DNA from: Mercurialis annua
Lineage: Eukaryota; Streptophyta; Magnoliopsida; Malpighiales; Euphorbiaceae
DNA length: 64,000 bases
Assembly: GCF_937616625.2 (NCBI RefSeq)
Contig: NC_065577.1
Location: 3,823,001 to 3,887,000 of the forward strand
Direction of reading: 5' to 3'
A program made the translations under genes and the position numbers. Of this stretch, positions 16,204-42,731 are shown piece after piece. The stretch's first letter is position 1. Each line of letters starts with the position of its first letter. Under the pieces are notes generated by a model that worked only from the letters and a program-made list of their open reading frames with translations, was not told the origin of the DNA and did no database searches.

Positions 16204-18809
16204 TCACTGAACTCTAAAAGGACATGAACTAAGGTTATTACCATATGTAAGACATCTTCTACAGTAGTTGCTATTCCGCCTGTCCCTAAATGTCTGGTCC
16301 ATTTCATTCCTACGCCTACTCTCAACCGGCCTACCCTTCTTCCTCATCCACTGTCTGTTAGGAACAAATGGAATTTCAGCGGAATTGATCCAACGATTTC
16401 GATTCCATAAGGGTTCAAATGAAACAGAGCTCCACGCTAAGATTCCATACTCGCATTTGTAATACCATGAAATGTAGTCACGGTAGTTCTCTCCATATTG
16501 GTTGCAGGCAGCTATCGCATGGGAGCACGGAATTTTCCATTGTTGAAATTTTCCACAGGTGCATGTCCCGTCCAGTAGACGAACTTGCTGTGTATTGCCA
16601 CCCTTTTGTCTTACATTGTCGCACTGGGTCAAGACATTGAATACCTTCTGTGCCACGTTGAACTGTGAAGCCGTATGAGTCTTTGACTTATTTTCCCAAG
16701 TCTCAATTCTGTGTGCACAGACTGGAGTCCACATGAAACCGGATGCCAACCACATTTTATAGTCGTTCACATGCTTAATGAATACGGAATTGACCTTGTT
16801 AAATATTGCTTCCAACATGGCTGTGATAGGGAGCCCCCGAATGTTCTTTAACATCGCGTTGACCGACTCAGCGTAGTTTGTTGTCATCACACCATGCCGC
16901 ATTCCAGACGTGTCGCCACTCATGCTCCATTTTCTAACATCAAGGCGGTCAAGATACGCATAACCCTCAGGTGAATCCGCCTCTATCAATGACATGTACC
17001 GATCTCTTTTATGCTCTTGGTATGCGCGTCCTACACGTCGATTAAACCGTCAATATTTTCCCATCAACCAAAAATTTATGTATTATATGAAATGACAAGA
17101 AAATTACCAGCTTTTTCAGCAAGCTTTTTGAGATATTTTTTCTTGAAGGCGTTGTGGAAGTGGCTCACTAGGTGTCTAATACACCACTTGTGGGTATCAC
17201 CCGCCCACTCAGGCCCCTCCATGGCACTCATAATACCGGAGTCGCGATCAGATATGATACACACCTTTCGCTCACCCAAAACATACCTCTTCAACATCCT
17301 CATGAAATACCTCCAGGATGCGGCAGTTTCCGACTTCACAATGGCAAAAGCTATCGGCATGATGTGATTGTTCCCTTCAATTGCAGAAGCAATCAACAAA
17401 GTCATTTCGTATTTTCCATATGTGTGGGTGCCGTCGATGTACACCACAGGCTTGCAATACTGAAAACCCTTCACCACTGGCTCGTAAGTCCAAAACATAT
17501 GCTTGAAAGTTCTGAATTGTGGATTGTTTTCAATTGGTGTACCTGTGCATACACCGTTATTAGTAATTATTAAATCGAACATATTTTTAATACTCGAAAT
17601 TTTAAAAAAATTACCGGTAGCATGCCAGACTGTCCTGGGATTAGCAACGGTGACATTCGTCATAAAATTGCAAATCTCCTTGAAAGAGTCGTCCCATTGT
17701 CCGAACCTGTTTGCAATGGCCTTTTCCTTGGCATACCATGTTTTTTTGTATCCGGGCCTAACTCGCAATTTTTGAAAAATGCCCTCTTGAAGCGTTTTAA
17801 TCCTAATGTCACGTTGCAGATGCAATTGCGTGTCGATGTGTTCAGCTATCTGTCGCGCTCTTAAATTGCGATGGTCTTGGTTCATTGATTGGCCGCTGCA
17901 TTGGTGGGGGCCGTTATATCTTGTTATTATCCAGTCTGACTCGCCTTTCAAAAGCGACGCACGCAACCTCCAATTGCAAGTGTCATTGTTCACACACACA
18001 AGAACTATTGTTTTACCATTTGTTACACTGTTCTTGTATTCTTTATTAGCTGCAATGTGATAACTCGCCGCGCATGTCTGGACAGCATACCTCGAACTAA
18101 AAACCATCCCCAATTCAAACTCTTTGCCTGCTTCCCATATTGCATTTTCTTTAGGCCACAGATTCATATTGACACACATGTCGTCAACATTCTGATGCGT
18201 GTACTCATGAGGAAGGCGCGACTCAAAATGATCTGTATTTTGTTCCGACCCACCACCGACATTCTCACCATGGGTGCCATCTCCATTATCACCACCGATG
18301 TCATCATCATCCTCGTTGTCATCAGCAACGGCCCCGTAGAAGTGTTCTTCTTCCTCATCCTCATCACTAAAATCATCACCATCGTCTACATCCGCACAGT
18401 CGTCTACATCCGCACAATCGTCTACATCCACAGAGTCGTCTACATCCGCACGTACTTGAGATAACGGATTGTACACAATATAAAACTCAAGTACCCTCAT
18501 TTGTGGCGTCCGCGAAACATTACGCCACATTGCTTGCATATGAACATCTGTCTCCATAGGAAAACCATCATATTTTTGAAATCTTCCATGTTCATCGAAC
18601 CGAGGCACTCGTAGATAAATCTTCACTATCTCGTCACCATCCTTCAGCCCAATTACCCTTCTAATTACGACTTGTAGTTGTGCAAAATTCACTACACTCG
18701 TCAGCTCAACCAGTTCTGATTTACCAGAAACATAATCAACTCCACCCGGAGTCGATAATATTGTACCATCCCAATAAATTTTTAGGGCTGGCAGCTCATT
18801 TGTCGTCAT
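16204..18809 (-). CDS. MuDR-type transposase of the MULE
   Basis: Three exons (18809-17615, 17542-17108, 17030-16204) join in phase to 818 residues, starting at ATG 18809. A variable N-terminus ends in an acidic tract with a repeated VDDCADVDD unit (about residues 125-190). A MuDR DNA-binding-type region follows (WPKENAIWEAGKEFELGMVF; CNWRLRAS). The MULE catalytic core has the first Asp in VYIDGTHTYG, the second in CIISDRDSGI, a CIRHLVSHFH C/H motif, and a probable catalytic Glu in TNYAESVNAML. The SWIM zinc finger is CTCGKFQQWKIPCSH. A CRRCLTYGNNLSSCPF knuckle-like motif lies near the C-terminus. No stop or frameshift was found, so it may be active. The first intron is 72 nt and stop-free in frame. 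Confidence 0.92.
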
Positions 18810-24687: not shown

Positions 24688-24716
24688 CACTACTAGAAAA
24701 CATGGAAATTGCGACG

Positions 24717-25125
24717 AACATTAGCGACGGATGGTAAATCCGTCGCTAATGTCACATATTGGCGACGGAATTAGCGACAGACACCATATCTGTCGCTAAT
24801 TCGTCAAAAATTCAGGCGGGAGCAAGCCCGCCAAATTAGCGTCGGATATTCCGTCACTAATCCGTCGCTAAAAATGGCGGGCTTTGGAGGGAAAAATAGT
24901 GCGCCACATTTTCAGTGAAATTAGCGACGGATGAAAAGTATCCGTCGCTAAATGCCCTTGATAAGGAAACGCTCCGTTTCACTAGTCAACTTGGCGACGG
25001 ATTGTTACTTCCGTCGCTAAATTTAGCGACGGAGGTAACAATCCGTCGCCAAGTTGACTAGTGAAACGGTGCGTTTATTTTGGTAAAGAGTTAGCGACGG
25101 ATATTGCAATCCGTCGCTAACTTTT
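24717..25125. repeat. CACTA-1 left subterminal array
   Basis: Repeated TTAGCGACGGAT and its inverse ATCCGTCGCTAA, often as facing pairs with 4-7 bp between them, at least six pairs. Such arrays are the usual binding sites of TNPA-like proteins in CACTA elements. Confidence 0.9.
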
Positions 25126-26264
25126 TACCCTACTTCAGAAACAGAACCGTTTCACTTTGCAGTTTAGAAAATATTTTTCTTCATTTCCGCCGCCGCCCCA
25201 TTTTCCGGTTTCCTCCCGCCGCTCCATTCTTCAGTCTTCCTCCCACCGCTCCGTTCTTCGGTCTTTTCCACCGCTCCATTTCTCCACTCTTCCGCCCGCC
25301 GCTCCATTTCTTCATCCTTTTCATCTCGGTCTTCCTCCCGCCGCGTCCGTTCTTGCTGCCGCCGATCGCCGGAGAAAGGTTAGTGGTGTTTTATTTCACT
25401 TTTGTTATTTATTATATTTATATAAGTGATTTTAATAATTTGTTAAAAAAAAAAAGGAAACTGCCGCCTCCTTTCATCTCCCCCTCGCCGGCGCCGTTGC
25501 AGCTGCCGCCTCCTTTCATCCTCCGTCACCTATTTCCGCAGCCCCTTGAAAGGTTAGTATTTTTCTGAATTTAATTTAATTTATTGTTAATTTATATTAA
25601 TTGTTTTCAATTAAATGATTAATTATATTGTTTTATTTATATTGATTAGGTTAAATTAGGTTAGTAAAATTAAATTAAGGTTAATTTTCTGTTTTTGTAA
25701 GTTATATTAAATTTATTTAGGGTTAGATTAGTTAAATTATAATTGTATTAGTTTAATTTTATTAGTTTAAGATTTGTTTTATAAATTAGGATTAATTTTT
25801 TAAAAATTATATTAAACTTTTTAATTTAGGGTTAGGTTAATATACATTATATTTGAATTGGTTTAATTTAATTAGTTTATGGTTTGGTTAATTAATTGGC
25901 TATTAATTATTTTATGTTTTTAAATTTTTTATTAAATTAGATTTAGTAATTTAAGTTATTTAAAATATTAATTGAATTAGGTTATATGTTAGGTGATTTA
26001 GGTTATATTTTAGGCTATTGTATAATGTTAGATTTAAATCTATATTCAAGTTAAAAACTTTGATGCGTATATTATATATAATTATTTAATTTGAATAATT
26101 CTGTTTATTATAATTAAGATTATTAACTAATAAAAATTGTATAAAATAAAAATTGTTATATTGATAATTAGGTTATTAGTTTAACTTAATTATATAATTA
26201 AATTGAATATTAGTAGTATGTTGGTTTGTGTATTGTAGTATGGTGGTTTGTGGATTGTAATTTG
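25126..26264. other. CACTA-1 leader: CT/GC-rich block, then AT-rich intron-like DNA
   Basis: 25170-25560 is rich in CCGCCGCTCC and TTCCTCCCGCCG units followed by two splice donor-like AGGTTAGT sites. 25560-26260 is AT-rich with TTAGGTTA runs. It looks like untranslated exons and introns of the transposon transcript. CACTA-2 has the same arrangement (37660-38650). Confidence 0.5.
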
Positions 26265-26330
26265 CTTGCAGGACTTCCCTGAAAAATGGGTGATGCTCAT
26301 TTTTAGGGGAAGTGCTGCCCAATTTTTTCT
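26265..26330 (+). ncRNA. Short conserved hairpin at a splice acceptor (CACTA-1, upstream copy)
   Basis: TTGCAG followed by GACTTCCCTGAAAAATG pairs, across a GGTGATGCT loop, with CATTTTTAGGGGAAGTGCTGC. The stem is about 21 bp with three mismatches. The left arm begins on the acceptor AG. The same block recurs at 31923, 38661 and 41302. Confidence 0.55.
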
Positions 26331-26441
26331 AGAAATTTAATATATTTATTGCGTGATAGGTGTGATATCCGTTAGTGTGTTGCAGCGGCTCGACATTCTT
26401 TATTGTTCTTTTATATCTGTTGCGGTTCTGCTCTACAACAA

Positions 26442-26983
26442 GTAAGTACCGTTATTATTTTTATTTTTATTTTCATTTATAATTAATTAGTTAATTTATA
26501 AGCTGTTTAAACCTAAAATGACCTCGATTTTATTCCCACCGAATAAAATCGTAAACCTAGCCGTAGAGTTCCCGTCCCGTGTGTTCAAGCGATTGAACGA
26601 CACGGGATTGTACAGTTTGTACAGTTCGCAAAACTGGTCCTCCCGTAACTCGATCACGAAAAATATATATGTCTAGTAGCGGTAGAAAAATATTCGGTTG
26701 TTTTCCAGCGTTTGTTCTCCGGGTGGATGTATAGTATATGTTATGTAACGCTTATTCCTCGCGGAATATATAATTAGCGTTACACCACATATGCTAAATA
26801 TCGCACTGAAGGAGAACGACGCCGGAAGGCTGCCGAATATTTTCGCCGTTGCTAGGCATATATCGTGGCCGAGTTAAGGGGCGCCAGTTTTGCGAATGGG
26901 ATAGGTCCATACCTTTAAAGCAGTCAATTACATTGACTTTGCTATTTTCGAGCGAAAACCCCTCCTAATTATCCGTGCTACAG
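26442..26983 (+). other. Leader intron directly before the TNP2 start codon
   Basis: Donor ACAACAA|GTAAGTACC at 26441/26442 and acceptor GTGCTACAG at 26983, two bases before the ATG. Unlike ordinary introns it is well conserved in CACTA-2. It holds small hairpins (GATTTTATTC/GAATAAAATC; CCCGTGT/ACACGGG) and one large foldback. Confidence 0.7.
26624..26897 (+). ncRNA. Long symmetric foldback in the CACTA-1 leader intron
   Basis: GTTCGCAAAACTGG at the left pairs with CCAGTTTTGCGAAT at the right. Going inward, TAACTCG pairs with CGAGTTA, ATATATGTCTAG with CTAGGCATATAT, ATATTCGG with CCGAATAT, TTGTTCTCC with GGAGAACGA, GTAACGCT with AGCGTTAC, and ATTCC with GGAAT. A 4-nt loop lies at 26759-26762, the exact centre. 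The counterpart at 39073-39357 keeps the pairing. It could be a small-RNA precursor or a structured intron. An old foldback insertion is the alternative. Confidence 0.6.
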
Positions 26984-26985
26984 AA

Positions 26986-29900
26986 ATGGAATCAGACCGA
27001 AGTTGGATGTATAGGCGGCTCCAGGGCGGGTTGTTGTACCCAGGTTTTGACGAGCGCGTACAAGAGTTTGTGAATTTCGCCTTACGTCATCCTGCGTGTA
27101 TGAGTGGGGCTGAGATTAAATGTCCTTGTCCTAGGACAGGATGTAAAAATACGAGTTATCGGGATGTCGAAACAGTCAAGCTTCACATTTTGCAGAAAGG
27201 GTTTGTCAAAGATTATCAAGTCTGGGTTTTTCATGGTGAGGGAAATGTTTTAAATCCCCGTCCCGTTGCAGAGCTACCGGAGTATGACGTTGACATGGAA
27301 TATGAGGGGGGTGACGAGTTCAGCTCCGTTCAGAGAATGGTTATCGATGCTGCCGGTCCAGAAGTAGTGTTCACGGAGGAGGAACCGAATAATGAAGCGA
27401 AACATTTTTATGATATGATGCGGGCGGCCGAAGAACCTGTATGCCCCGGTAATAGCAAACACTCTCCCTTGTCTGCAGCTGCTAAAATGTTAGACATCAA
27501 ATGTCGACATAGTGGGTCAGTAGCTTTAGTAGATGATGTGACCGAATTTATACAAGAGCTGCTCCCAGAGAACAACAAGATGCCAAAGAACTTTGCTGAA
27601 ATCAAAAAGATAGTTAGAGGTCTTGGATTGCCGGTTGAAGTTATCGATTGCTGTTTTCGCAACTGCATGATTTATTGGGGGCCAGACGCGGAGTTAACAC
27701 GATGCAAAATTTGCGATCACGAACGTTGGAAACCGCCCCCTAAAGGAAATTCTGTGAGACGACGAGTTAACGTCCCTTACAGGAAAATGTTTTATTTTCC
27801 TATAACTCCGAGACTGCAGAGGTTGTACGCTTCTATAGCCACCGCCAAGCATATGACGTGGCATGCAGAACACGAGATGGTTGATGGAAAAATGTGTCAC
27901 CCGTCAGACTCTCCGGCGTGGAAACATTTCAGTGAATTGCATACAGAGTTTGCAGGAGAAATTCGAAACGTCAGACTAGGCCTGTGTACTGATGGGTTTC
28001 AACCATTTGGGGCCTTCGGGCAGAATTATTCATCATGGCCAGTCATTTTGACACCCTACAATCTCCCCCCAGGGATGTGTATGAAAGATGAGTTCATGTT
28101 TTTAACTGTTATTGTCCCTGGGCCTCGAAATCCTAAACACCAAATGGATATATTCCTGCAGCCGTTAATAGCTGAGCTGAACCAACTGTGGGAATTTGGA
28201 GTCCAGACATTCGACGTTCATAGGCGACAGAATTTTCAATTGAAAGCGGCACTAATGTGGACAATTAATGATTTTCCCGCGTATTCCATGTTGTCTGGCT
28301 GGAGCACATCTGGGAGATTGGCTTGCCCACACTGCATGGAAGATACCGCTGCTTTTACGCTTAAAGGGAGTAGAAAACAGTCGTGGTTTGATTGCCACAG
28401 AAAGTTCTTGCCTCGTGGTCACCCGTACCGTCGTAACACAACTCATTTCCGTAAAGGGAAAACCGTAAATCAAGAATTCAGACAGCCGAAAATCGGAGAA
28501 GAATTGCTGGCAGAGGTGGACAATCTGGGTTTTATGAAGGCATATGAAATTGGGGCTGAGAAAAATAATGCTGCAAAGTCGACAGATTATGGTTGGAATA
28601 AAAAAAGCATTTTTTGGGATTTGCCGTATTGGAAAACAAATCTCATTCGTCACAATCTCGATGTCATGCACATTGAGAAAAACGTATTCGACAACATTTT
28701 CAACACGGTACTAAATGTTCCCGGGAAAACGAAAGACCATGCAAAATCTAGGGAAGAGTTGAATGACATATGTGATCGGCCTGAGTTAGCAAAAGATCCG
28801 ATAACTGGGAGATTTCCTAAGGCGATGTATGCTTTGGACAGGGACGGAAAAAAGGCTTTACTCGAGTGGATTAAGTTAATAAAGTTTCCAGATGGCTATG
28901 CGTCTAACTTGTCCAGATGTGTCGATACAATCAGTTTGAAGATGCATGGAATGAAAAGTCATGACTGCCACATTTTTATGCAAAGACTTCTGCCAATCGC
29001 TCTCCGTGAGTTATTACCGAAGGAAGTGTGGGAGCCTTTAACAGAGCTGAGCATCTTTTTCCGTGAGTTAACCTCCACGTCTCTAACAGAGAAAGATCTT
29101 GAACGTATGAGGCTGGAAATCCCAAAGATACTGTGCAAGCTAGAACATATTTTTCCGCCCAGCTTTTTTGACTCCATGGAACATCTACCCGTACATCTAC
29201 CGTACGAAGCTATGATGGCAGGGCCGGTTCAGTATCGCTGGATGTACCCATTTGAAAGGTAATGTTACTGAATTTTCTCAATACTGTGTATAAACATGTA
29301 ATGTTTGCTAACTGTGGCATGTGGAATCAGATATTTGAGAAAACTGAAAAAAAAAGTGTCCAATAAAGGGAGGGTAGAAGGAAGCATCAGTAGCGGATAC
29401 TTGAATGAAGAAACCGCAAAATTTGCAGCTTATTACTTTTCAGAAGGTGACCCAATGATACCTGAGCGGCTGCAGAGAAATGAAGTTTGTGACATTGAAG
29501 TCGACGACAATGTTGACAGACTATCTATTTTCAAGCCTCACGGGCAATCAGTGGGTGCTTGTCGAAAGAGATATCTTGAAGATGCCGAGATTGTTGCTGC
29601 CCGGACATATGTTCTGTTGAATTGTTCAGAAATTGAAAATTACAGAGAGTAAGCTTTACTACAGATGTTAATGTAAATAATAATAACGATTCAGAGTCTA
29701 ATTGTTGATTTCTTATTAACCTAAGGATTTTCGAAGGCGAGTTGCGGAGAGGAAACCCCGATATCAGCACCTCGCAAATTGAAGCAAAGTTTGAGAGTGA
29801 CTTTGCCTACTGGTTTCAACAATATGTAAGTATTTTAAAAATTATATTTCGATTATTTCAGTATAAAGTTCCGATTTACAATACACTTTTACGCTACAGG

Positions 29901-30586
29901 TTCAAAATCCAACTGTCTGTAGTAATCCCTTCATTCTTAGTCTCGCCAAAGGACCTCTTAGATCAGTCAAAACATTTAAGGGGTACCGGGTAAACGGATT
30001 CAAGTTTCAGACTCAAGCGTATGGGGAGGAACAACTTACGATGAATAGTGGAGTCTGCGTGAAGGGAACTCAATATGTCGATAACGAAAATGACTTTTAT
30101 GGAGTTTTGACAGACATAATTGAGTTGGAGTATCCGGCGCTTCCAATGAAGACGACTGTCTTATTTAAATGCGAGTGGTTCGACCCAGCGCACAATTCTG
30201 GCACAATTAGTAACAAAAAATACAACATGGTGGATATTAATAACAGAAAGAGATACAATAAGTATGAACCTTTCATCTTAGCCGAACAGGCCGATCAAGT
30301 TCATTACCTACCATATCCGAGTAAAAGAAGGGATAAATTAAATTGGTGGGCAGTTTGCAGAATAAAGGCACGATCAGAACTTGACATTCCCGAGGGGATT
30401 GTCCCGGCTTTTCAAGATGACATAGAAGAAAATCCTCTCATTGTTGCAACAGACGACAATCCGACATATTTAGCTGATCAAAATGGAGAAGCTGAAGAAG
30501 ATGCGTTGTTTATGCCTCCTGAACAAGAAACAGAAGATGAGTTCATCGCATCCTCATCAGACGAAGATGAAAGCGAAGAGCTTTAG
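26986..30586 (+). CDS. TNP2-like CACTA transposase
   Basis: Exons 26986-29258, 29331-29648, 29726-29825 and 29900-30586 join in phase to 1125 residues. In order: the transposase-associated N-terminal domain with a Cys/His cluster (IKCPCPRTGCKNTSY, about residues 45-60); the TNP2 core (VIDCCFRNCMIYW, LTRCKICDHERW, LGLCTDGFQPFG, NDFPAYSMLSGWSTSGRLAC, HNLDVMHIEKNVFDNIF); a DUF4218-type region (ELSIFFRELTSTSL to MYPFER); a DUF4216-type region in exon 4 (VLFKCEWFDP; INNRKRYNKYEPFILAEQADQ); and an acidic tail. TNP2/TNPD-type proteins cut and join CACTA ends. The start is taken at the ATG right after the leader-intron acceptor, the same position as in CACTA-2. Confidence 0.93.
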
Positions 30587-30738
30587 TAGTTTAGTAATTT
30601 TTTTGTATTACATTTTTTAAGTGTATACTCGTTGAATTTTAATTAATATTTATTAGTTTTATGTTTCACGAAATATTTCTTAATTTATATAATGTGTTGG
30701 TTGGTTGTGGAACATGTAAAATTGACGTATGTACAGGT

Positions 30739-32529
30739 ATGAGGGGTCGAGGCAGTGGCTCAGGCCGTGGCACAGGCCGTGGCACAGGCCGAGGACGCGG
30801 ACGAGGAGATGACCCTGTTGTTGGCGATACCGACGTTGCTGAGGAGCAACAACAGCTGGAGACCGGAGGACCTATTCAGCCTCGGCAGCAGCGTGAGCCT
30901 GGCGAGCCCCCGGCTATTCTGGACGACCAGGGCAGGGCGAGGGTTCACCCAGACCCTAGCAGGTTTGATTACTATTTAGTTTGTAATGATATCATAATAT
31001 GTAATTAATTTATATGTAAACTAATTTATGCTAATCAAATCACAGGACTTTGTTGCTGGACTCAGGGCCGGTTTCTCGTGCCATCAGAGAGATTTTCAGG
31101 AAGTGCTGGTTCGAGACTGGCTATGCATGGCGTTTTCTGACTGCGGATCAGAGGGATTTCTATTTCCAGGAGTTCCAGGTAATTAAATTAAAGTTAATAC
31201 ATGTACGTATTGATTTTCGTGAAAAACTAACTCACATCATACGTTTTTACTGTTGCAGAAAGAATTCTGGTGGGATAGTTCTGTCTACAGCGACGAGCTC
31301 ATCAGACAGGTCTTTATGACCCACGCAGCTACCCGCTACAAAGACAACGTCCATAAAATGAAGTCCAAAAAGCAGAAGCATCAATCTGTGGGCCAGGACA
31401 TATGGGATGCCTGGAATGCCTTCTGGGACACAGAGGCGGAGAAGAAGAAGTCGGAGATAGCCCGGGCAAACCGGATGAGCGAGCCGGCGGGCGCCGGTAC
31501 TGGACCGGTCCGTCATACCGGGGGATCCCGCTCAGCTCTCAAGCATATGGACGTGATGGTATGTTTCTAAATTCAGTAAGTAAAATTATGTTTTTTTTTA
31601 TTTTCGAACTTATTTAATCATATTTTTTCTAATAGGCTAAGGAGCTCGGCCGGAAACCGAGTGCGACGGAGCTGTACACTCGCATTCACTCCACGAAGGG
31701 TGAGAAGAAGCCTGTAGACAAGCGGGCTCAGAACATGACTGTAAGTTCTTATAAATTCATAAATCTATTAATTAGATTTAGGCTTCAGTGATGAATATAT
31801 ATATTGTACTTGTTAAATATATTTGGATTAAATCTTTAAGTATATAAGTTGTGTAGACTTGACGTTTGTATACTTAATTAGATTGAAAGTGTTTGTTGTT
31901 TGGGTTATATATTGTAATTTTCTTGCAGGATTTCCCTGAAAAATGGGTGATGCTCATATTATAAAGGAAATGCTGCCGAAATTTCGTTAACAATTTGAAT
32001 TACTTTTCATATGTTATGCTTTTTTATTTGTCATTAACCTGAACTGATATGTTTTTTAACTGTTTTGCAGGACGCTATTGCTGAGAGGCTGGCTGCTGCG
32101 ACTCAGTCGCCGACCGGAGAGGGTAGCTCGACGAGTCCAGCTGAGGTGGATGAGACCCAACTGTTTCTGGACATCGAGGGTGTCAATAAGAAGCACCGCG
32201 TGTACGGTTTAGGGTCGGCGAGTAGCAGGTATGCGGCCCCCAGTAGCAGCAGGGCGCAACGAGGCAGCTCTTCTAGGTCGACACATCTTGCGGACGAGGA
32301 CATCGAGTGCCGTGTGCAGACAGGCATTCAGGAGGGCCTGCGAGAGGTTGAGCAGAGGTTAGCGGAGCAAAATCGTCAACAGCTGGCAGAGCAACGGCGT
32401 GAGCACCAAGCGGCAATGGCCCAGCTTATCCGAGAGGAGATAGCAAGGATGATGCCTAATCTTCCTCCAGAGTATCAGCCACAGTTTCCCGCTCCCCCAC
32501 CAGACCGTGATGACACTACAGATTTGTAG
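30739..32529 (+). CDS. Ptta/En/Spm-type second transposon protein
   Basis: Exons 30739-30962, 31046-31178, 31259-31558, 31636-31740 and 32071-32529 join in phase to 406 residues. The start ATG lies just after an acceptor-like TACAG. The N-terminus is a GRGTGRG repeat. The middle matches the plant transposase Ptta/En/Spm family (Transposase_24): IREIFRKCWFETGYAW, RYKDNVHKMKSKK, IWDAWNAFWDTEAEKKKSEIA and HTGGSRSALKHMD. The C-terminal exon has a YGLGSASSRY motif and a coiled-coil-like Gln/Arg/Glu-rich stretch (about 32330-32450). In En/Spm the partner protein binds the subterminal repeats, and I infer the same here. The 331-nt last intron contains a copy of the short hairpin. Confidence 0.85.
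31923..31985 (+). ncRNA. Short conserved hairpin at a splice acceptor (CACTA-1, downstream copy)
   Basis: TTGCAGGATTTCCCTGAAAA, then GGGTGATGCTC, then AAAGGAAATGCTGC. The stem base pairs GCAG.ATTTCC with GGAAAT.CTGC. The upstream copy has ACTTCC with GGAAGT, a paired change. It lies inside the last intron of the Ptta-type gene and could also act as an alternative exon reading DFPEKWVML before a stop. Confidence 0.5.
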
Positions 32530-32740
32530 TGTCCTGTTAGATTAGGATTCAGAACTAATTATGTATTTTTTTTCTTTTAGACGACGTTATGTGTATTTTG
32601 ATATTTATCTATATATTCAGTGTCAACTTTCTATTAATTGTTATCCGTAAATGAATTTTAATTACTGTATTTACCGGATTTGAAACGACAGGGAAAACAA
32701 CTGCGAAAAATGGCATAAATCTGCCGAAAAAACATAAATT

Positions 32741-33177
32741 GGCGACGGATTTTAAATATTGGCGACGGATAAATCCGTCGCCAACTTGCCAAATCAGAGA
32801 CAAACTTGGCTACTTTGGCGACGGATTTATCCGTCGCTACTTTGGCGACGGAGTTGGCGACGGATATATCCGTCGCCAAACGTGCCCAGTCTGTCTCCAA
32901 ATTGGACAGTTTAGCGACGGATATATCCGTCGCTAATCCGTCGCGATTCGGTCTCAGCTTTGGTCTCAGCTTGAGACCATTTCGCGACGGTTTCTGGTGA
33001 ATTTAGCGACGGGTTATCCGTCGCTAAATCTGCCACGGAATACAATTTTGGTCGCTAATTTGTTTTGCGACCAAAAATGTTGCGACGGACACAGTCCGTC
33101 GCAATTCCGTCGCTAACAGCAGTTAGCGACGGAATGTGGGGCATTAGCGACGGATTTATCCGTCGCTAATGCCCTGT
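32741..33177. repeat. CACTA-1 right subterminal array
   Basis: At least eight TGGCGACGGAT or TAGCGACGGAT units and their inverses. Both TTGGCGACGG and TTAGCGACGG variants occur. Confidence 0.9.
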
Positions 33178-33189
33178 TTTCTAGTAGTG

Positions 33190-36925: not shown

Positions 36926-37307
36926 ATTTTTAAATGAAGAAAGGATTAACACTTAACACGACAACATGACACTCAAACTGCTTTCTCGGATAATATAAGT
37001 TTATTTTACAACAATTTGTTCAACTATTTATTGATAAATTTTACATTAATAAGATATTCAAATTTCATTAATAAGTAACAATTAAATACTAAAATTATGT
37101 TTTTAATAAAAAAAATGTATTTGGATTATCATTTTTTAGGCTAATAATCACCCATGGCCCCTCAATTTTAGGGGTACGGGCGCTAAACCCCCTGATGTTT
37201 AAAAACGGGCACTAAACCCCCTGATGTTTAAAAACGGGCACTAAACCCCCTAAGCTTTGAGTCGGCGCTCACAAAACCCCCTAAGCTCCACTACTAAAAT
37301 ACAGTAA

Positions 37308-37655
37308 TTTACCGACGGAATTTAGCGACGGATTGTAAATCCGTCGCTAAATTACTTTTACCGACGGATTTGGCGACGGAACCAATATTCCGTCGCCAAA
37401 TCGCTAAATTGAAATGGCGGGAGCTTCCCCGCCATTTTCGACGACCAAATTAGCGACGGATTGTAAAATCCGTCGCTAATTTGGTTCAACTTAGCGACGG
37501 ATGGAAGAATCCGTCGCTAAGTAAAATGACTTTGGCGACGGATTTTTCAATCCGTCGCTAAAATGTCAGCTAAGTGAAACGCACCGTTTCACTTAGCACT
37601 TAGCGACGGAATATTCATTTTAGCGACGGATTAGAATCCGTCGCTAAAATTCAAT
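37308..37655. repeat. CACTA-2 left subterminal array
   Basis: TTAGCGACGGAT/ATCCGTCGCTAA facing pairs like those of CACTA-1, at least five. Confidence 0.9.
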
Positions 37656-38654
37656 TAATAACCGATCCCCTTTCTTCTTCCCCCCATTTATTTTCTTTTC
37701 CAAATTGCAGAGCCCTTTCTTTTCTTCCCCGCCGCCCCCATCTTTCCCCTCCTCCGGTCTGCCATTTTTCCCTCCTCTGCTGCCGCCATCTTTCCCTCCT
37801 CTCCCACGCCATTTTCCCCTCCTCTGCTGCCGCCATCTTTCCCTCTCTTTCCCCTCTCCTCTCCGCTGCCGCTGCTGCCGTTGCCGTTTGTAGCCGCTGC
37901 CGCCTGTAACCGTTGCCGCCGTCGTGGACTACAAATCGCTGCCATCTCTTCTTATTCCGGTAAGTTTTCTCTCTTTTCTTTTCTTTTACTTGTTAATTAT
38001 ATATTTTAGATGTTAATTTTTTTTTAAAACAGTCCACTCCTCCATTGCCTCCATCTGCCGACCTCCGACCGCCGCTTGGATCGCCGACCATCGCCTCCGC
38101 CTCAGCCTTCTGTTGACAGTGAGTATGTGGTGTTTTTTTATAATTTATTTGTTATTATTTTAATTATAAATTAGGTTAGATTATGATAATTATTAAGTTT
38201 ATTTAGGTTAATATATTATGTTAATTTATTAATTATTAGGTTAGATTATTAAAAGTAGGATATATAATTGTAATTTCAATTAATCTTAACAAAGTTTAGA
38301 TTATTCAATTATAAATTAGGTTATTTTATTGTTAATTATAGGATAATTAATAATTACTATAAGATTAATTATTAAGTTAATTTATTTTTATTTACATTAG
38401 GTTAATGTGTTTTATTAGACTATATATAATTGTAATCTTAGGCAAGTTAAATTGTTTATTAGTAATGATAGGTTAATTTGTTTAGGTTTACTGTACTTTT
38501 GGTGTCTTATATTAAATTTGTTAAATAGTTTGTCGTGATTTTGATAGTTAATTAGATTATTAATACTAAATTATCAAATAAATTTAGGTTAATCGGTATG
38601 AATAGGTTGGGTTAATTGGTATGATTTGTGTGTTGGATTTTTTTTAAAATGTAT
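37656..38654. other. CACTA-2 leader: CCGCCATC-rich block, then AT-rich DNA
   Basis: 37730-37950 is rich in TGCTGCCGCCATCTTTCCCT units, followed by donor-like CCGGTAAGTTTTC at about 37957. AT-rich intron-like DNA follows. It parallels 25126-26264 of CACTA-1. The GA-rich minus-strand frames are not genes. Confidence 0.5.
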
Positions 38655-38722
38655 TATTTACTTGCAGGCTTTCCCTGAAAAATGGGTGATGCTCATTTTT
38701 AGGGGAAGTGCTGCCCAATTTT
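38655..38722 (+). ncRNA. Short conserved hairpin at a splice acceptor (CACTA-2, upstream copy)
   Basis: TTGCAGGCTTTCCCTGAAAA, GGGTGATGCTC, then TTTTTAGGGGAAGTGCTGCC. Nearly identical to 26265-26330, at the same distance (about 0.75 kb) before the TNP2 ATG. Confidence 0.55.
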
Positions 38723-39072
38723 TGTAAAAAAATTATAAATATTTAGTTTAATCTTAAATTAGAAACATTTGTAGTATTCTAAAAAAATGATTTGAAACTA
38801 TTATTATAGGTTTGTGTGTTGGCGATTCTTGAGATAGCCGATCGATATTTTTAGTTCGACTTTCCCCTATTTGTTGCGGTTCTGCCCTGCAACAAGTAAG
38901 TACCATTGTTTATTTTTTTTTTAATTTTTTTAATTTGTTTAATTACAATATACTGAATTAACTTAAACAAAAAAAATGATTTTATTCACACCGAATAAAA
39001 TCTCACCTAGCCGTAGAAAACCCGTCCCGTGTCCTCAAGAGATTGAACGACACGGGATTGTACGTGTGTACA

Positions 39073-39357
39073 GTTCGTAAAACTGGTGTCTACGTAATTC
39101 GATCACGGAAAAAAATATATGTGTAGATGCGGTAGAAAAATATTTGGTAGTATTTCCGTCGTATGTTCTTCGGGTGGCTATCTAGTATATGCCGTGTAAC
39201 GCTATTTCCTAACGGAATATGTATTTGGCGTTATTCAGCATATATTTGATAATGCACTTGGAGAACTGCGCCGGAAGACTGCCAAATATTTTTCTCCGTA
39301 TTTACGCATATATCGTGATCGTATTAAGTAGACCCAGTTTTGCGAATGGGATAGGGC
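39073..39357 (+). ncRNA. Long symmetric foldback in the CACTA-2 leader intron
   Basis: GTTCGTAAAACTGG pairs with CCAGTTTTGCGAAT; TCGATCACG with CGTGATCG; ATATTTGG with CCAAATAT; GTTCTTC with GGAGAAC; TAACGC with GCGTTA; TTCC with GGAA around a TAAC loop. Where CACTA-1 has C-G pairs (ATATTCGG/CCGAATAT; AACTCG/CGAGTT) this copy has T-A. Confidence 0.6.
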
Positions 39358-39436
39358 CCTACCTTTTTAAGCGGTCAATTGCATTGACTTTGCTGTAACC
39401 GAGCAATAAACCCACCTAAATGTCCGTGCTACAGAA

Positions 39437-41170
39437 ATGAATTCAGATCGCAGTTGGATGTATAGTGGGAGACTGGTCAGAGGATTGTTGACTGAAGGGT
39501 ACATCAGTAACGTTAGGGAGTTTTTGAACTTTGCTGTGCAACACCCCGAGTGTATGAGCGGGGCTCAGATAAAATGCCCTTGCCCTAAACCCAAATGCCG
39601 GAACACTGCTTTTCGAACTGTTGACGAAGTGGAGTTTCATCTCTACACAGACGGGTTTGTGAGTAATTACCACGTCTGGACTCACCATGGTGAGGAAAAT
39701 AGGAGGGTCGAGGTGCCTGTTAATGTTCTGCAAGCGGACAACATGTGGGAGCATAGAAATGAAGACGAGGGTTGCAGTTCATTCCAGAGAATGGTTACTG
39801 ATGCGGGTGGTCCCGAAGTTTGGACAGAAGAGCCTCCGAATGCAGAAGCTCAGAAGTTTTATGATATGATGCGTGCGGCCGAAGAACCCATATGGCCTGG
39901 GAATGACAGACACTCCGCTTTGTCTGCAGCCGTAAAATTTTTAGAATTCAAGTGCCGATTTCAAGCGTCTGACGGTCTGATGAATGAAATGAGCGAGTTT
40001 GTACATCAGCTGTTGCCTAAAGACAACAAGTTAGCCAAAAATTCGTACAGCATTAAAAAGCTAGTCAGAGGGCTTGGGCTTCCAGTTGAGGTGATTGACT
40101 GCTGTAAAAATATGTGTATGATATACTGGGGTGACGATGCGGGTTTGACTTTGTGTAAAGTATGCGGGCATGACAGGTGGAAACCAGCTACTGCGGGTAA
40201 TTCAAAAAGAAGAAAGACGAATGTGCCTTATAAAAAAATGCATTATTTTCCTTTAACTCCGAGGCTGCAGAGGTTGTACGCTTCTAGGGCAACAGCTAAA
40301 CATATGAGGTGGCACGCCGAGCACGAGATGGAGAATGGTGTGATGAATCATCCGTCTGACTCGCCAGCTTGGAAACACTTTTCGGAGTTACATCAAGATT
40401 TTGCAGCAGAAGTTAGAAATATCAGATTGGGGTTGTGTACGGATGGGTTTCAACCATTTGGTGCATTTGGGCAACAATACTCGTCATGGCCGGTAATTGT
40501 GACTCCGTATAACTTGCCTCCTGGCATGGCCATGAAAGACGAGTTCATGTTTCTAACGGTTCTTGTTCCCGGACCCAATAGTCCAAAAGGCAGTTTGGAT
40601 ATTTTCCTACAGCCGCTAATAGCAGAACTGAACCATTTGTGGGAATTTGGGACGCGGACATATGACATTCATAGGCGGCAAAATTTTCAATTGAAAGCCG
40701 CTCTTATGTGGACGATCAATGATTTTCCGGCTTATTCAATGCTGTCTGGATGGAGCACATCGGGTAAACGGGCATGTCCTCACTGTATGGAAGAAACTGA
40801 TGCAATTACCCTTCCGAAGAGTGGTAAACAATCGTGGTTTGATTGCCACAGAAAGTTCTTACCACCTGAACATTCGTACCGTAATAACACTACGGATTTT
40901 AAAAAGGGCTACAAAGAAAGAAAATCATTCAGGGGATACAGAACTGGAGAGGAAATTGAACAAGAGATTGATAGCCTTGGTTTTAAAAAGGCATACGAGG
41001 TTGGAGCTCAGGAGACGAATGCTCATAAATCAAAGCATCATGGGTGGCATAAGAAAAGCATATTTTGGGATTTGCCGTATTGGAAAACGAATATGATTCG
41101 TCATAATCTGGATGTCATGCATACTGAGAAAAATGTATTTGACAACATTTTCAATACAGTGCTTAAGTAG
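39437..41170 (+). pseudogene. Truncated TNP2-like transposase of CACTA-2
   Basis: 577 codons from an ATG directly after the leader-intron acceptor (GTGCTACAG). It aligns with CACTA-1 TNP2 from the Cys/His N-terminal domain (IKCPCPKPKCRNTAF) through VIDCCKNMCMIYW, LGLCTDGFQPFG, NDFPAYSMLSGWSTSG and HNLDVMHTEKNVFDNIFNTV. The homology stops at LK, with TAG two bases on. The DUF4218-like and DUF4216-like parts are gone. The remaining frame has no other break. The missing 3' half means no working transposase, so mobility would need CACTA-1-like help. Confidence 0.9.
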
Positions 41171-41300
41171 TTCAATAGTTTGAATATAATATCTCAATTG
41201 TTTGAAACACGTAATTTATTTTATTTGAATTAGGTATTTTTGTTGTTCCTTTGAATTAAGTGGTTTGGTTGTTGATATGTGCTAGTTTGTACAATTTGAA

Positions 41301-41362
41301 GTTTGCAGGATTTCCCTGAAAAATGGGTGATGTTCATTTTATAAACGAGATGCTGCCGAATT
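41301..41362 (+). ncRNA. Short conserved hairpin at a splice acceptor (CACTA-2, downstream copy)
   Basis: TTGCAGGATTTCCCTGAAAA, GGGTGATGTTC, then ATAAACGAGATGCTGCC. It lies just before the surviving last exon, as in CACTA-1. The right arm is more diverged, but the stem base GCAG.AT/AT.CTGC remains. Confidence 0.5.
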
Positions 41363-41438
41363 TTTATTAGAAATAACGTTTAAGTTGTTTGAAACATGTA
41401 ATTCATATGAAACTAATTGGTTTAAATTATTATTGTAG

Positions 41439-41861
41439 GAGCGTTTTGAGCAGGAGATGTTGGCCGCTACACAGACAGCCGAGGGGAGTACAGCATCTAC
41501 CCCAGTGGATCCGGACGAAGTTTATCTTGCTGTTGAGGGGGTGAGGAAGCGGCGTATCTACGGATTAGGCTCAGTTGGTTCTGAGTACGTAGCCTCGCAG
41601 CGGGGTACTTCTAGTAGACGACCCGGCAGCTCCTCTCAGACCATGTCGCCAGCCGACGATGCGAGGTTCCGCACTGATCTCATCGCTCAGTTTGCGGATA
41701 CGATCCGTGATCAAGTCCAGATTGCGGTTGCAGCGGCGATGCAGCAGATGCAGCAGCGGGCCCCGGGAGATGTTTTACCCACTCCTCCACCACCGCCTCC
41801 ACCACCGCCTCCACCGGCTACTGATGACGTTGTCCCAGATGACGACGTCACAGATTTGTAG
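41439..41861 (+). pseudogene. Last exon of the CACTA-2 Ptta-type gene
   Basis: Opens after a TATTGTAG acceptor and reads ERFEQEMLAATQTAEGSTAS, then VRKRRIYGLGSVGSEY, the counterpart of CACTA-1 HRVYGLGSASSRY. A Gln-rich stretch and a poly-Pro run follow, ending DDDVTDL. The four upstream exons were removed with the deletion, so it has no start of its own. Confidence 0.8.
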
Positions 41862-42047
41862 TACTGTAGTGTAGGGACGTTTTTGATATACAATTTTCAT
41901 GTATCGTACGTTATATATATATATAATATTTATGATATTTTCGGTGTTTTTATAATTTGCGTCAATTTATGCGTATTTAAACAGGGTATGCATTCATTTA
42001 AAAAGCCAAAAAATCAAAAAAATTATGCTTGATTTTTGTCAATTTCC

Positions 42048-42475
42048 CGACGGATTTGTCCGGATTAGCGACGGATAAAGTCCGTCGCTAAACCCAATCA
42101 TAAAATTAAAATACGTCGCCAAAACTGTCGCCATTTGGCGACGGACTTTGGCGACGGATTTAAATCCGTCGCCAAATGGCGACGGATTCAAATCCGTCGC
42201 CAAATGGCGACGGATTCAAATCCGTCGCCAACTCCGTCTTGGAACGTCGCCAAACGCGTCGCCTGGCGACACGTTTGGCGACGGACCTTTGCCATTTGGC
42301 GACGGATTTTTCCGTCGCCAAATGGCGACGGATTGTTTTGTGGCGTCGCTAATGTATTTAGCGACGCCACATTTCCCGACGGATTACGTCCGTCGGGAAA
42401 TCCGTCGGGAAAGCAATTCCCGACGGATATGGGCTTTTTAGCGACGGAAAAATCCGTCGCTAAAAAGCTCCATTT
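42048..42475. repeat. CACTA-2 right subterminal array
   Basis: Dense GGCGACGGATT and AATCCGTCGCC units, many as back-to-back palindromes, plus a TTCCCGACGG variant near the end. Confidence 0.9.
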
Positions 42476-42731
42476 TAGTAGTGCTCCAAATATGACGAAA
42501 ATACCCCTGGCGCCGTTTTTTCAGTCAGTTCTCAGTCTTAAAAAAAAAACTGACACTGCCATCTAATCTGACACGTCAGAAATATACCTTAAAAATTTCA
42601 AACACCCAAAATACCCTTACTTTAATTTAGAAAAAGAAAAAAAAAAACAAACCAACCCAATCTAATCTAACCATTTGATTAACCACAACAACCAACCCAA
42701 CCAGCACTCCCACCCAACCACCGCCGCCACC

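Follow-up and report, generated by a model that had tools for sequence, protein, structure and literature searches.

Evidence for a conserved sense-strand RNA structure in the probable TNP2 leader intron of four CACTA transposon lineages in Mercurialis annua

Research on plant transposons has usually been concerned with the proteins they encode and with their termini. Foldback structures comparable to the one described here are known from a few systems. Rice pre-miR820 is a foldback RNA within a CACTA element; it resembles OsDRM2, the target of miR820, which suggests a recent origin (PMC3459959). In maize, genome-wide folding and small-RNA mapping revealed stable, local, miRNA-like folds in transposon transcripts, including those of CACTA elements (PMC10760457). 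The 35S leader of caulimoviruses, or 8S RNA, forms an elongated rod before the first large open reading frame (ORF) of a genetic parasite, and its structure is kept more than its sequence among relatives; the stem of a ribosome-shunt leader is preceded, at a distance of 5-10 nt, by a short ORF (PMC4462095). The soybean CACTA element Tgm contains subterminal stem-loops in the form of arrays of short inverted repeats near its ends (PMC2613891).

The block described here resembles these systems in part. Like pre-miR820, it includes a foldback within a CACTA element, but it is not significantly similar to three DRM-like loci, is common to four diverged lineages and has no assigned mature strand. 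Whereas the maize study surveyed folds across a genome, we consider one block with covariation between lineages. As in caulimoviruses, a rod precedes the first large ORF, but here it lies in a probable intron of a plant DNA transposon and the upstream short ORF is not conserved. In contrast to the arrays of Tgm, it contains a single rod, which lies some 1.9 kb inside the 5' end of its element. No CACTA block of this kind was described in the literature or in Rfam as searched, judged from titles and the starts of abstracts and thus short of a full survey. Conserved 13-14-mers of the block had no match in paper texts, the term 'secondary structure' was not used in passages on CACTA structure and introns of PMC8978399 or PMC4158355, and exact 23- and 20-mers gave 0 matches in viral_contigs.

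The window, i.e. the whole stretch of 64,000 nucleotides that was analysed, contains two CACTA (En/Spm) elements on the plus strand, both with CACTA terminal inverted repeats (TIRs) and the TNP2 domain (Transposase_21, E 4.9e-78 and 1.6e-74). CACTA-1 (24688..33189), a member of lineage 1a, was delimited by its inverted arms and end sequences and by the domains Transposase_21, DUF4218 and DUF4216. Its TIRs are CACTACTAGAAAACA / TGTTTTCTAGTAGTG and its flanking bases TAT / ATA, and therefore it lacks a perfect 3-bp target duplication. CACTA-2 (37289..42483), a member of lineage 2 recognized by the same kinds of evidence, is flanked by the target duplication CTC. It is shorter than CACTA-1, and its TNP2 ORF comprises 577 aa, compared with 762 aa in the lineage copy L118. 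The TNP2 transposase ORF of CACTA-1 (26986..29262, plus strand, 758 aa) contains Transposase_21, Transpos_assoc and DUF4218. Elsewhere in the window (16204-18809, minus strand), adjoining ORFs carry a MULE transposase domain and a SWIM zinc finger.

Upstream of the TNP2 ORF lies a probable leader intron (26442..26983, plus strand). The preliminary description had placed its end two bases before the start codon, and the boundaries fit this reading: a GTAAGT donor at 26442, preceded by AA, and a TACAG acceptor up to 26983, followed by AA and the ATG at 26986. The donor is kept in lineages 1a, 1b (as GTAGGT) and 2, and so is the acceptor, with exceptions such as the copy L046. Between the donor and the TNP2 start there are seven ATGs in 1a, nine in 2 and four in the examined part of 1b.

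The centre of this probable intron is occupied by the foldback H3 (26624..26897, plus strand, 274 nt), which was characterized by folding, lineage alignments and pairing tests. Its minimum free energy (MFE) is -154.9 kcal/mol, compared with a mean of -71.96 for shuffled sequences (z -17.99; 0/200 shuffles as stable). The sole hairpin loop is located at 26759-26762, and the centre of the foldback at 26760.5. In a symmetric alignment, the H3 consensus of each lineage contains 101-103 Watson-Crick pairs. The equivalent H3 of CACTA-2 (39078..39347, plus strand, within a probable intron at 38896-39434), identified by folding and alignment, folds at -138.6 with a central loop, and the slightly longer segment 39070-39350 at -148.6. 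The preliminary description, which had proposed a single hairpin of about 274 nt with a central loop in CACTA-1 and its counterpart in the same place in CACTA-2, and had suggested folding both, was therefore correct, and the observation is stronger than was claimed there.

What that description did not include is that H3 is only one part of a larger conserved block (26525-26983) inside the probable intron. Upstream of H3, the plus strand carries H1 CGATTTTATTC/GAATAAAATCG (26525..26551) and H2 (26571..26608), both supported by folding and alignment, followed by H2b TGTAC/GTACA (26609..26623), supported by alignment; H4 and H5 follow downstream, with H5 GCAGTCAATTACATTGACTTTGC (26920..26942, plus strand, from alignment) placed between H3 and the acceptor. 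The first CCC of H2 pairs with a GGG beyond H3, which produces a multi-branch junction of H2, H2b and H3. A further short conserved hairpin in the leader, H0 (CTTCCCTGAAAAATG..CATTTTTAGGGGAAG, 26271..26323, plus strand), was recognized by 28-mer matches and by the alignment of 1a, 1b and 2. Its 28-mer has four matches in the window at ≤3 mismatches and 0 in 100 shuffles, and H0-like stretches also occur at 31928, 38667 and 41308. Each of the two window elements thus has H0 twice, once ahead of TNP2 and once far downstream.

The M. annua genome (451 Mb, 55 contigs) was searched for further copies, and the block was found in four CACTA lineages, namely 1a (CACTA-1), 1b, 2 (CACTA-2) and 4. A Pfam search (150 TNP2 N-termini scored of 549 candidates) and a protein search with CACTA-1 (150 scored of 627 candidates) provided 108 TNP2-selected loci, i.e. 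the 30 best and 60 further rows of the former and 18 from the latter. Among these, 41 have a TNP2 matching that of 1a, 1b or 2, with the single copy L099 assigned to 1a for the count, and H3 is present at or near full length in 37 of the 41 (exceptions: L048, L051, L100 and L104). The remaining 67/108 loci gave no blastn match to H3 or to TNP2 of 1a, 1b or 2. A 22-nt signature within H2 is repeated at 431 places of the genome at ≤3 mismatches, and its reversed control at 0. Four of these places (L125-L128), picked by eye and having no TNP2 match in either TNP2 search, are all copies of lineage 4; TNP2 follows in three of them, and in L127 an interruption falls at the base of H3. These four places are absent from the scored lists of both TNP2 searches.

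TNP2 begins 88-89 nt after H3 in 37 of 40 scored copies (431 candidates), and the other three are collinear with the CACTA-1 leader. Since all 40 scored copies lie within a CACTA leader and none stands alone with its own target duplication, a separate foldback MITE, which the preliminary description had named among the findings that would overturn its reading, was rejected.

The block is on average better conserved than the transposase that follows it. Between CACTA-1 and CACTA-2 (1a-2), the TNP2 proteins are 69.2% identical over 575 codons, with 52/150 fourfold sites the same; for whole TNP2 the figure is 69/196, which is nearly saturated. Per 100 alignment columns, the identity between the same lineages is 75-87% (about 80%) in the block and 55-82% in TNP2. 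Lineages 1a and 1b share 78.8% identity over the whole TNP2 protein and 112/220 fourfold sites; identity is 90-98% in the block, 64-88% in TNP2 coding sequence and 45-71% in upstream noncoding sequence, apart from the H0 stretch (79%). In a 27-row alignment, 32/288 paired and 53/174 unpaired sites changed between 1a and 2, and 4/288 paired and 22/178 unpaired sites between 1a and 1b. The 1a-1b difference at paired sites is thus 1.4%, compared with 49% at fourfold sites (108/220), and there are fewer paired changes than the 1a-2 comparison would predict. This would be explained by very strong constraint, by families having exchanged the block, or by both together. The block of L068-L086 (1b copies) and of L112-L116 is far closer to CACTA-1 than their TNP2 or flanks. 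The closeness of the 1a and 1b blocks hints at such an exchange and, as it exceeds what the proteins would lead one to expect, exchange may inflate the apparent constraint.

Compensatory changes provide the first line of evidence for selection on pairing, which the preliminary description had proposed from two paired differences. Both of these, ATATTCGG/CCGAATAT in CACTA-1 versus ATATTTGG/CCAAATAT in CACTA-2 and the change from C-G to T-A within AACTCG/CGAGTT, are present in the alignments. For the main tests, the structure was taken from a single lineage (1a, 151 pairs within 26524-26900), because deriving it from the whole alignment favours pairs that have been kept. From 1a to 2, single changes kept 11 pairs and broke nine, double changes kept nine and broke one, and two pairs contained gaps. 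Permuting the 3' partners gave on average 1.3 double compensations and at most six in 5000 permutations, compared with the nine observed. Lineage 4, which was found last, served as hold-out. When the 1a structure was applied to it and 13 gapped pairs were set aside, 21 of 26 changed pairs still paired (single changes 14 kept and three broken; double changes seven kept and two broken), and the seven double compensations compare with a mean of 0.87 and a maximum of four in 2000 permutations. Compensation beyond chance was thus found outside the lineage from which the structure was derived, except for the comparisons 2 to 4 and 4 to 2, where three double changes each lie within the permuted range (maxima five and four).

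Mutations private to single copies, which were used as a guide to decay without selection, kept 17 pairs and broke 39, whereas changes between lineages kept 20 and broke 10 (Fisher p 0.0015). For the whole intron block, the contrast from 1a to 2 is weaker (23 changed pairs kept, 17 broken). The lone diverged copy L099 (77% identical to 1a) has 27 changed pairs kept and 26 broken under the 1a structure; as the only copy of its kind available, it was left out of the tests on the four lineages. Its counts would speak against selection on pairing if the copy was ever active, and would count neither way if it decayed long ago.

A second line of evidence distinguishes the sense RNA from a DNA palindrome. 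In a palindrome, G.T and A.C mismatches should be equally frequent, because either mismatch becomes the other when the opposite strand is read, whereas a selected RNA tolerates G.U only. Symmetric scoring of H3 gave G.T:A.C ratios of 10:1 (1a), 11:1 (1b), 14:1 (2) and 16:1 (4), which are not independent since the lineages share ancestry; when the two window copies were aligned in another way, the counts were 13:3 and 14:2. With so few pairs, H2 by itself gives no usable ratio (1:0, 1:0 and 0:1). The sense strand of H3 folds at -154.0, -163.9, -148.2 and -157.5 in 1a, 1b, 2 and 4, while the antisense strand is weaker in each (-131.2, -133.4, -100.2 and -104.6).

Foldbacks upstream of TNP2 also occur in other CACTA families of this genome, and none was accepted as the same structure, as they show no blastn similarity to the block. 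The family with a 776-aa TNP2 has a foldback of similar length with ACTCGAG motifs (L062 about 825-1097, L077 725-995), which served as control: 12 of 19 listed copies were tried, L070 had no anchor, and in the 11 scored, closely related copies the ratio is about 1:1 (3:5 to 7:6). With G.T and A.C balanced, it was rejected as an equivalent of H3. The CACTA family starting with ATGGCTCCAGAA has tandem CAATTCTGCTGCAGAATTG palindromes in this position (L054 about 771-1060, oriented; L027 about 971-1225).

The excess of G.T in H3 together with its balance in the control indicates that selection acts on the sense transcript. Combined with the compensation in the hold-out lineage, it follows that sense-RNA pairing is under selection. 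The proposal of the preliminary description is in this way borne out: the paired changes were followed through four lineages and compared with permutations, and the strand-specific wobble test had a negative control. From the sequences, we therefore consider it nearly certain that the block forms a conserved sense-RNA structure whose pairing has been maintained by selection across four CACTA lineages.

The conserved fold suggests a regulatory RNA. Our main reading, to which we assign a probability of roughly one half, is that the TNP2 pre-mRNA contains a multi-helical RNA domain, with the H3 rod and short helices in a multi-branch junction, which is confined to the probable leader intron and would regulate transposase expression. 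That the mechanism operates in cis, on splicing or expression, we infer with odds just short of even. The block would then act as a gate on transposase production, in which the fold determines the rate of leader-intron splicing, or whether splicing takes place at all. As the retained intron contains several ATGs in addition to the rod, no TNP2 is expected from the unspliced transcript, which the rod may also make accessible to Dicer. Such a gate would let the element keep its transposase low and responsive. Against it, nine of the 20 single-sided changes from 1a to 2 break a pair.

A conserved helix with freer loops would suit a Dicer substrate equally well, and a small-RNA precursor is the main rival to the regulatory intron. 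A Dicer-like enzyme would cut the rod, and miRNA- or siRNA-like species would act in trans on silencing genes or related transposons, or would limit the element's own copy number. We regard this as possible, at clearly less than even odds. At about 274 nt and with 101-103 Watson-Crick pairs, the rod stays below the 300-nt ceiling for the foldback precursor of a plant miRNA, and its paired sites change less than its unpaired ones. Its best-conserved 21-nt stretches (about 26679-26706 versus 26824-26849) show four changes when both strands are counted in the 1a-2 comparison, but a 21-nt duplex invariant between these lineages, as expected for a conserved mature duplex, was not found. The other conserved helices and the conserved unpaired sites are also left unexplained. 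Rfam gave 0 matches above gathering score in the window; below it, the only matches within 26400-27000 were CyVA-1 (E 0.012; 23.1 bits, where 41.4 are required) and, on the minus strand, mir-8303 (E 0.38). A few bases presumably common to the base of H3 and miR820 were not used as evidence. Precedents are miR820 in a rice CACTA element (PMC3459959) and the maize transposon structures, CACTA included, to which more small RNAs map (PMC10760457).

The more specific suggestion of the preliminary description, a miR820-like precursor aimed at DRM2, gained no support. The CACTA-1 and CACTA-2 blocks were compared, as ungapped 21-mers, with 4.0-4.5 kb parts of three DRM-like loci of the same genome, of which L119 looks DRM3-like and L123 and L124 look DRM2-like. 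No blastn match below E 0.2 was obtained for these loci, and no clear target site was detected: the best 21-nt target scores (6.0-7.0) lie within the range of locally shuffled controls (3.5-7.0; 10 controls for L119, four each for L123 and L124). The comparison with host DNA-methylation genes, which had been proposed, thus stayed at the level of shuffled sequence in these three loci, and the likeness to host DRM2 that marks miR820 was not seen.

A decoy is improbable. The excised intron lariat with its double-stranded rod, or the unspliced leader, would occupy dicing proteins and weaken transposon silencing. That the helix and not a fixed sequence is kept between lineages agrees with this, but the conserved junction and the conserved sequence on the acceptor side would not be needed. 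Transposon transcripts are usually rare, which also counts against a decoy. Lariat RNAs are described as associating with DCL1/HYL1 and lowering miRNAs (PMC5147768), and the caulimovirus leader or 8S RNA as giving a huge set of siRNAs that suppresses silencing (PMC4462095).

A pararetrovirus-type shunt leader, with the intron left in the transcript and ribosomes passing over the rod after a short upstream ORF, is very unlikely. The long rod directly ahead of the first large ORF and a 34-codon ORF in lineage 2 with its stop at the base of H3 would fit, but this short ORF is not kept in 1a or 1b. The ORF that precedes H3 in 1a extends into it, no ATG was found ahead of H3 in the part of 1b that was examined, and a short ORF at 5-10 nt from the stem was not seen in the examined sequence of 1a, 1b and 2; the conserved splice sites would be unnecessary in a retained leader. 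A palindrome kept at the DNA level by arm-to-arm gene conversion, protein binding or MITE insertion, with RNA pairing as a by-product, is already disfavoured and hardly credible. In its favour, another CACTA family of the same genome does have a foldback without strand bias ahead of TNP2, but the excess of G.T over A.C in H3 (10:1 to 16:1) and the leader position of all 40 scored copies (431 candidates) contradict it.

The boldest reading that the data allow is a decoy of the lariat or caulimovirus type. We consider it unlikely, though worth stating, that this clade of CACTA transposons possesses a dedicated structured RNA which predates the split of the four families and protects the element from silencing, with the rod, spliced out or in the pre-mRNA, diverting the dicing machinery. 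The block would be an independent functional module whose conservation exceeds that of the transposase and which families may have exchanged. If true, the double-stranded rod would be the DNA-transposon counterpart of the caulimovirus leader RNA. With 431 matches to the H2 signature, the block is present hundreds of times in one genome, which makes tests of expression, splicing and small RNAs straightforward. A noncoding RNA block that evolves on average more slowly than the transposase implies that the element depends on RNA structure, either for the control of its transposase or for dealing with host silencing.
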